Source of the DNA: a virus
DNA: 61,016 nt
Direction: 5' to 3' (one strand)
IMG/VR virus record: IMGVR_UViG_3300043438_001546
Span: 1-61,016 of that record
The notes under the pieces are model-generated. The model ran no database searches and was not told the origin of the DNA. It worked only from the letters and a program-made list of their open reading frames with translations. Numbering within the stretch: position 1 is the first letter of the stretch; every line of letters begins with the position of its first letter. A program made the position numbers and the translations under genes. Below are positions 259 through 1,474 of this stretch, one piece after another.

Positions 259-459
259 TTAAAAGTCTACACCTTCACTGTATCCGCACTTAGCTAAGAA
301 CGGTGCTTCGGTTACTACTATACAGTAGGTTTTTTCCCATTTAACAAGGAAATGAACTTTGTGTGTTAGTGCTAGCAATCTGAAGTCATAGTATTCTCTG
401 GAAGACATCTTGCATTCCACTGTGAAGTTTTGTGAGTAATCTGTTTTGTTTTGTGACAT
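259..459 (-). CDS. Small hypothetical protein (66 aa)
   Basis: I do not recognise the family. The protein is soluble-looking and mixed in composition, with three Cys and several aromatic residues, and no signal peptide or membrane segment. The ATG at 457-459 is preceded on the minus strand by the A/T-rich stretch typical of starts in this genome. It follows the structured non-coding region at 520-850 and is followed by a terminator at 133-174, so it probably sits at the 3' end of a leftward transcript whose leader carries that structured RNA. Its reality rests on this context and on the clean open frame. Confidence 0.55.
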   Translation of the reverse strand: MSQNKTDYSQNFTVECKMSSREYYDFRLLALTHKVHFLVKWEKTYCIVVTEAPFLAKCGYSEGVDF

Positions 460-524: not shown

Positions 525-800
525 CAAGGGAGTTTGAACCGTAGGTTCAGCCTGCGGAGCATTGCCCGCGGCAGGCGAGCAGAGGTAAGCCCAGCGGCAT
601 AGGAACTGCAAGTTCCTATTGAGCGACAGTGTGGTATTCAGGTTATGCAACACTATGGGCTACTAACTAATTGAATGGGATTCAGGTAGTGCATACCATG
701 GGCTACTAATCTAAGGAGTCTGAACCTTGGTTCAGCCCTCGGAGAGAGAGGGATGTGTCGTTGGCCATGCGGCCAGAAACCGTCAAGGTTTCTACGAGCT
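525..800 (-). ncRNA. Duplicated structured RNA-like element, no protein
   Basis: This stretch is much more GC-rich than the rest of the window and folds into two similar units, 535-624 and 720-799. Each has, in plus-strand order, a GAACC/GGTTC hairpin (535-549; 720-735), a directly abutting second hairpin of different sequence (550-576; 736-752), a third 7-9 bp hairpin (599-619; 775-793), then 1-2 bases and GAGC. Stem sequences differ between units while pairing is kept, as expected of RNA selected for shape. Unit 2 has an extra small hairpin (762-775). The transcribed strand is not certain; both neighbouring genes read leftwards. I do not recognise it as a tRNA, group I/II intron or known ribozyme. 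Confidence 0.6.
636..714. repeat. Two-copy 35-nt direct repeat inside the structured element
   Basis: Copies at 636-670 and 680-714 share the blocks ATTCAGGT and ATGGGCTACTAA exactly, in the same order and spacing, with divergent bases between them. They lie between the two hairpin units, so the whole 525-800 element looks like a tandem duplication or a two-domain RNA. Confidence 0.75.
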
Positions 801-817
801 TTTGTTTAATATGAATA

Positions 818-847
818 ACCCACGTCACACCGTAGTGCAACGTGGGT
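818..847 (-). terminator. Strong hairpin behind the 204-aa leftward gene
   Basis: ACCCACGT (818-825) pairs with ACGTGGGT (840-847), and the interior can also pair (CAC/GTG around TACG). It starts 15 bases past the stop of the gene at 863-1474 on the minus strand. There is no clean T-run after it, so it may be a weak terminator, a 3' stabilising hairpin or a processing boundary in front of the structured element. Confidence 0.5.
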
Positions 848-862
848 ATATCCAATCTGAAA

Positions 863-1474
863 TTAGAAATTGATTTCAGGTAGCTTAACAGCGTCAATGT
901 CTTTGGCTTTGCTTTTAGCTGTGATTTCAGCTGTGGCATCAACCAACGTCATACCATATTTCAACGCATGTCGCGCTGAGGCTGTGGTAAGTGTTTCCTG
1001 AAACGCAGCAATTTGTGCATTAAGATTTGTAATCTTTTCATCAGCACCCCAATTGACACGACCAACATAATAACCCTTATCAGTTAGTTCAATAGTATCT
1101 GCTTTTAAAGCGAATACTTGTCCCAACTCAATTGTCATTGCTTTAAGACGCATGTCTTGACCAACAACAACAAAGGAATTACCATATTGAAATTTAGCAC
1201 CGCCTTTCTTTGTCTTACCAATGAACGGTAAGTGTAAAAGAGCACCAAATTTATCACTTGTTTCAACACCCTCCAATTCCAATACAGGAACAGATGTAGT
1301 AGTTGAAACAATAGTTTCTTCAACAGAATAATCAGCGTGAGCTTGAATTTCAGCAACCAATGCATCAGCAACGTCTTCGGTAAGACCTGCAATTTTAGCA
1401 TTAGTTAATTTTGTTGAAGTGATTAAATTTTTGTTTGCCTTAATCAAAGCAATTTTTTCTGACATAGTTGTCAT
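863..1474 (-). CDS. Hypothetical protein (204 aa)
   Basis: I do not recognise the family. The start is placed at the ATG at 1472-1474 (MTTMSEK...), because the longer frame upstream runs through a structured GC-rich leader. The N-terminal 60 residues look helical and Ala/Lys-rich; the middle is beta-rich with a Lys/Gly loop (KTKKGGAKF) and alternating hydrophobic strands; the C-terminus is helical. There is no signal peptide or membrane segment. It is the largest leftward gene in the window. Its roughly 270-base leader is heavily structured and carries the conserved hairpin element at 1577-1610, so its expression may be controlled at RNA level. Confidence 0.75.
   Translation of the reverse strand: MTTMSEKIALIKANKNLITSTKLTNAKIAGLTEDVADALVAEIQAHADYSVEETIVSTTTSVPVLELEGVETSDKFGALLHLPFIGKTKKGGAKFQYGNSFVVVGQDMRLKAMTIELGQVFALKADTIELTDKGYYVGRVNWGADEKITNLNAQIAAFQETLTTASARHALKYGMTLVDATAEITAKSKAKDIDAVKLPEINF

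Follow-up and report, generated by a model that had tools for sequence, protein, structure and literature searches.

We propose that a non-coding element at positions 525–800 of a freshwater crAss-like phage contig acts as a cis-acting control region, a leader or promoter array for leftward (early) transcription where the two genome arms meet. To this reading of the sequence we assign a probability of about 0.42. The window, that is, the whole stretch of DNA analysed, is an IMG/VR viral record of 61,016 bp, and the element combines two hairpin units with a repeat array, is not assigned to either strand, and keeps its position in relatives. Its 35-nt repeat holds minus-strand variants of a directional motif, TTACTATC(A/C), that an earlier sequence-only reading of this DNA had overlooked; since the repeat belongs to a promoter-like array on the minus strand, a cis-acting control region is suggested rather than a free-standing RNA. 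The element would thus join a directional motif array, spaced at ~41–45 nt, with one to three hairpin modules. An RNA polymerase, probably the one injected by the phage itself, may start at several motif copies, giving rise to nested transcripts with structured leaders that run into a gene for a 66-aa product, and the hairpins may tune loading, read-through or translation.

The element and its genomic setting

The window encodes a muzzle protein that matches PF25731 (Crassvirus muzzle protein), and in longer relatives of 114–120 kb a protein of 4054 aa carries DFDID, the motif of the virion RNA polymerase in crAss-like phages, seen in the relative G005 outside the part covered by the window contig. 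With both the muzzle protein and a DFDxD virion polymerase found, the carrier phage falls within the Crassvirales. IMG/VR contains 76 loci homologous to its terminase, and the closest GenBank phages are Flavobacterium, Bacteroides and crAss-like phages at ~24% identity; Leptolyngbya phage Lbo-JY46, considered as the nearest annotated relative by its major capsid protein, was too distant for use. Two genes of the leftward arm flank the element. Upstream, an early-arm gene of ~203 aa from its ATG (863–1474, minus strand), for which family searches gave no family, is followed by a 13-pair hairpin resembling an intrinsic terminator (818–847, minus strand). Downstream, the 66-aa gene (259–459, minus strand) is a neighbour conserved in all lineages; its product is predicted to adopt a small alpha/beta fold, with no confident match in a fold search and none in Pfam or NCBIfam. 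Relatives also carry a tRNA gene 2–3 kb from the element (L100 7651–7722, L122 1863–1934, L086 4482–4553), in the early-arm part beyond the left end of the window.

The sequence-only reading had described two units, at 535–624 and 720–799, each with three hairpins, and all of these are present where it placed them. Unit 1 follows the flank AAGGGAGT (526–533) and opens with hairpin A, TGAACC-GTA-GGTTCA (535–549, plus strand here and for the hairpins below), whose stem differs yet pairs in L122 and L086. Next comes GCCTGC/GCAGGC (550–576), helix 1 of the covariance alignment, in which 91% of cells are paired, and then ATAGGAACT-GCA-AGTTCCTAT (599–619), helix 4, with compensatory change in 7 of 8 pairs, before TGAGC ends the unit at 624. 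Unit 2, behind the flank AAGGAGT (713–719), repeats this order with a hairpin A of CTGAAC-CTTG-GTTCAG (720–735; orthologous hairpins in L086, L122 and L163), then CCCTC/GAGGG (736–752; identical in L123) and AGAAACC-GTCAA-GGTTTCT (775–793; a compensatory G-C to A-T change in L123), with ACGAGC ending at 799. To these we add a small fourth hairpin in each unit, missed in the earlier reading and recovered by a descriptor search just before hairpin 3: GCC-CAGC-GGC at 589–598 and GGCC-ATGC-GGCC at 763–774. The two copies of the 35-nt repeat (636–670 and 680–714) lie between the units as described, the GC content of the element (0.52) contrasts with that of the AT-rich contig (0.34), and the element has no conserved reading frame, in agreement with its description as protein-free. 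Its hairpin content is more than chance, as judged from the count of perfect short-loop stems with 5 bp or more (six, against a shuffle mean of 0.71 and maximum of 4), from folding z values of −2.7 on the plus and −3.9 on the minus strand, and from orthologues with compensatory changes.

The two repeat copies match save for a small gap and some substitutions, with a 15-nt core that is 93% identical at a spacing of 43, and amount to two of the motif copies in the TTACTATC(A/C) array, each carrying TTAGTAGCCCAT on the minus strand (666–655 and 709–698). Motif scans place further promoter-like copies on the same strand, TTACTATCATCA at 504–515, which stands 56 nt ahead of the 66-aa gene, and the variant ATACTATCATAA at 461–472, just before it. 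Across seven relatives, TTACTATC had the strongest strand bias of all 8-mers (50:1); because the motif itself set the orientation, this test is slightly circular, yet almost every genome has sites on one strand only. The form TTACTATCA[CT]C showed a strand ratio of 41:1 over 1.23 Mb of the clade and was absent from the outgroup records searched. Of ten regions tested, nine carry 3–5 motif variants within the element on the early strand, typically 41–45 nt apart, against at most one on the other strand and a shuffle mean of about 0.3–0.7. Elsewhere, TTACTATC sites follow terminators and precede early genes. Another sequence, TTTCTATC, is also strongly strand-biased (35:1, genome-wide in G005, G008, G025 and others) and is perhaps a variant of the same signal. 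The window contains a second repeated element on the minus strand, at 1577–1613 and 2452–2488, in which a constant TATCCTAAACTTAAA precedes a hairpin whose stems differ but pair (AAAGTCAC/GTGACTTT in one copy, AAAATCTC/GAGATTTT in the other); both copies recur on the early strand of G001 and G006.

From this distribution we infer that TTACTATC(A/C) is a promoter. It may be inferred further that the virion polymerase uses the motif, since published work has that enzyme transcribing the early and middle genes of crAss-like phages (PMC10136315); a review of this viral order makes no mention of a promoter. Synteny before the 66-aa gene, the strand restriction and placement of the motif, covariation, and the relative G021, which retains the motif array without the hairpin module, argue for the promoter reading. 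Against it stand the position of about half of the distinct motif sites inside open frames, the failure of a search at TTACTATC sites to find a second conserved promoter box, and L165, with only one good motif copy. The apparent selection of the loops on the template strand rather than on the predicted transcript also counts against it.

Homologues and covariation among relatives

The element recurs upstream of the 66-aa gene, at one syntenic place, in G001, G002, G005, G007, G008, G009, G022, G024, G025, G030 and G048, and is partly present where the G006 contig ends. The counts are not independent, since several of these genomes are closely related; G002/G030, G005/G048 and G007/G008 are near-identical pairs, so that the carriers, window included, represent about ten independent crAss-like lineages. 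All relatives carrying the element are metagenomic contigs. No copy was found in the GenBank phages searched, a direct DNA similarity search against phage records gave chance matches at most, and a pattern scan for AGCCGACAC...ATGGG returned mostly chance coding hits outside the clade. The G006 contig (L123, position 1) begins inside the hairpin element, which suggests that its structure or repeat breaks assembly. A further hairpin module in relatives, TCCACC..GTGG..CAAGTAGAC followed by a second hairpin, lies beside or inside the element at L105 6626 (minus), L163 1191 (plus), L123 about 129 (minus) and L164 622 (plus), and is absent from the window.

A covariance-model check across relatives, which the sequence-only reading had proposed, yielded both homologues and compensatory changes. 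The model was built from unit 1 in four genomes. The further copies that it finds all lie at the element locus, in L105 (6e-7) and L163 (0.12), and include second units in L122 (5e-6) and L086 (1e-4); an additional hit at L105:13410 was rejected as a coding repeat. The window's own unit 2 scores weakly (5.5 bits), indicating that the two units of the window are less alike than the units of its relatives. In the alignment, 89% of cells pair, compensatory changes affect 11 of 22 pairs, and covariation scores 0.36, whereas shuffles give 0.136 and slid controls no more than 0.066; the alignment was fitted to the structure and takes in the chance coding match at L105:13410, which makes the values approximate and biased in favour of structure, but the contrast is large. 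Selection for pairing in the element is therefore supported by the comparison of sequences. The earlier claim of selection for RNA shape holds for the pairing, through the homologues and their compensatory changes; the folded molecule may be RNA or DNA, as a plus-strand model and a mirrored minus-strand model score the homologues about equally.

The folded strand and competing explanations

G...A loops occur on the plus strand in 18 of the 26 distinct hairpins of the elements, and the complementary T...C in none, a bias that the earlier reading had also overlooked. Wobble pairs number 13 on the plus strand against 3 on the minus strand, in a count that includes redundant copies. A descriptor made up of a 3-bp GC hairpin with loop NNNC, a gap of 0–3 nt, and a second hairpin (stem of 5 bp or more, loop G(N1–3)A) gave 12 distinct hits in 2.18 Mb scanned, every one of them within the element and in the same orientation, whereas reversed controls gave none; as it was written after the modules had been seen, the evidence lies in its specificity, not its sensitivity. 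The plus strand, with its G...A loops and most of the wobble pairs, serves as template for the flanking early genes. G...A loops are favoured in DNA hairpins as well as in RNA hairpins, and they consequently mark the plus strand as the folded one without specifying the molecule. Covariance models do not decide the strand: a plus-strand model (R1) at first beat a minus-strand model (R2), and the mirrored minus-strand model (R3) then scored homologues about equal to or better than R1.

The same observations bear on a structured non-coding RNA of ~280 nt from the plus strand, with GNRA-like tri-, tetra- and pentaloops serving protein binding or stability. The loop asymmetry, the wobble pairs and the compensatory changes in stems all speak for such an RNA; against it, no plus-strand promoter or terminator of its own was recognised in the element, the neighbouring genes and terminator signals run in the opposite direction, and the mirrored model does as well or better. 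We regard this explanation as a live but less likely rival. The earlier reading could match the element to no known RNA class, and searches with Rfam and ARAGORN bear this out. At the curated gathering score, Rfam matched nothing in the window and nothing in the relatives' element, where its only hits were tRNAs at other places; permissive scans returned nothing credible, and ARAGORN found neither tRNA nor tmRNA. A Y RNA or other TROVE partner RNA was rejected, with a TROVE protein in none of 14 records, several of them fragments. An antitoxin RNA of the type III toxin-antitoxin (ToxIN) kind was rejected as well: the ~35-nt repeats upstream of a small gene recall such arrays, but there are only one or two full repeats with no terminator between repeats and gene, and no ToxN-like gene lies downstream, the 66-aa product being without a family match and too short for ToxN.

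The regular spacing of the motif could instead mark a replication origin, in which an initiator would bind to TTACTATC-like iterons about four helical turns apart and the hairpins would function on single-stranded DNA. Direct ~12-bp repeats at near-integral helical spacing (41–45 nt), beside hairpins and near a GC-skew minimum, are shared with iteron origins, and d[C(GNA)G] loops form stable DNA mini-hairpins, which the one-strand G...A loops would fit. In all six contigs checked, the element has a GC-skew minimum no more than about 3 kb away (in one contig a local minimum), but the skew switches where the coding strand changes and is thus not independent evidence. The same motif, moreover, stands singly before other early genes, unlike iterons, and no initiator was identified. 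We regard an origin as unlikely, though a live rival.

Hairpin promoters of the N4 type, in which template-strand hairpins with C(GNA)G loops are recognised directly by an injected polymerase, place the loops on the correct strand, the template of the early genes, and crAss transcription has been described as N4-like in outline (PMC10136315). Stem bases vary in N4 early promoters, whose loop is 3 nt long and which contain a sheared G:A pair (PMC4496689); many of the element's small hairpins would fit this pattern, with a C-G pair closing a GNA loop, and their stem letters vary while pairing is kept. Unlike the fixed 3-nt loops of N4, however, those of the element vary from 3 to 5 nt, with pentaloops and tetraloops alongside GNA triloops; a second GC-rich hairpin takes the place of the short spacer; and the crAss polymerase is of another family, not the T7/N4 type. 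GNA triloop hairpins are sparse elsewhere, and the module is confined to this one locus and does not precede early genes generally. The variable loops and the other early genes without hairpins weaken this explanation, making an N4-type promoter possible but improbable. The short hairpins with GAAGA-type pentaloops near early genes may also resemble lambda boxB/nut antitermination RNA, but the loops of the element lie on the strand opposite the early transcript and no N-like protein was identified.

Implications for crAss-like phages

A more far-reaching reading can be envisaged, in which the virion RNA polymerase of crAss-like phages would recognise TTACTATC(A/C) and the template-strand G...A hairpins would form an extruded-DNA promoter or enhancer array for that polymerase. 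We consider this reading quite improbable; if true, it would mean that phages had invented transcription dependent on hairpins a second time, independently. crAss-like phages rank among the most abundant viruses in the human gut, and the RNA polymerase that they inject is known to transcribe early genes. The findings reveal a covarying structured element in a clade without a matching Rfam family. Together with its strand-restricted motif, the element offers a short, concrete and testable DNA sequence, and with it a handle on how crAss-like phages start transcription.
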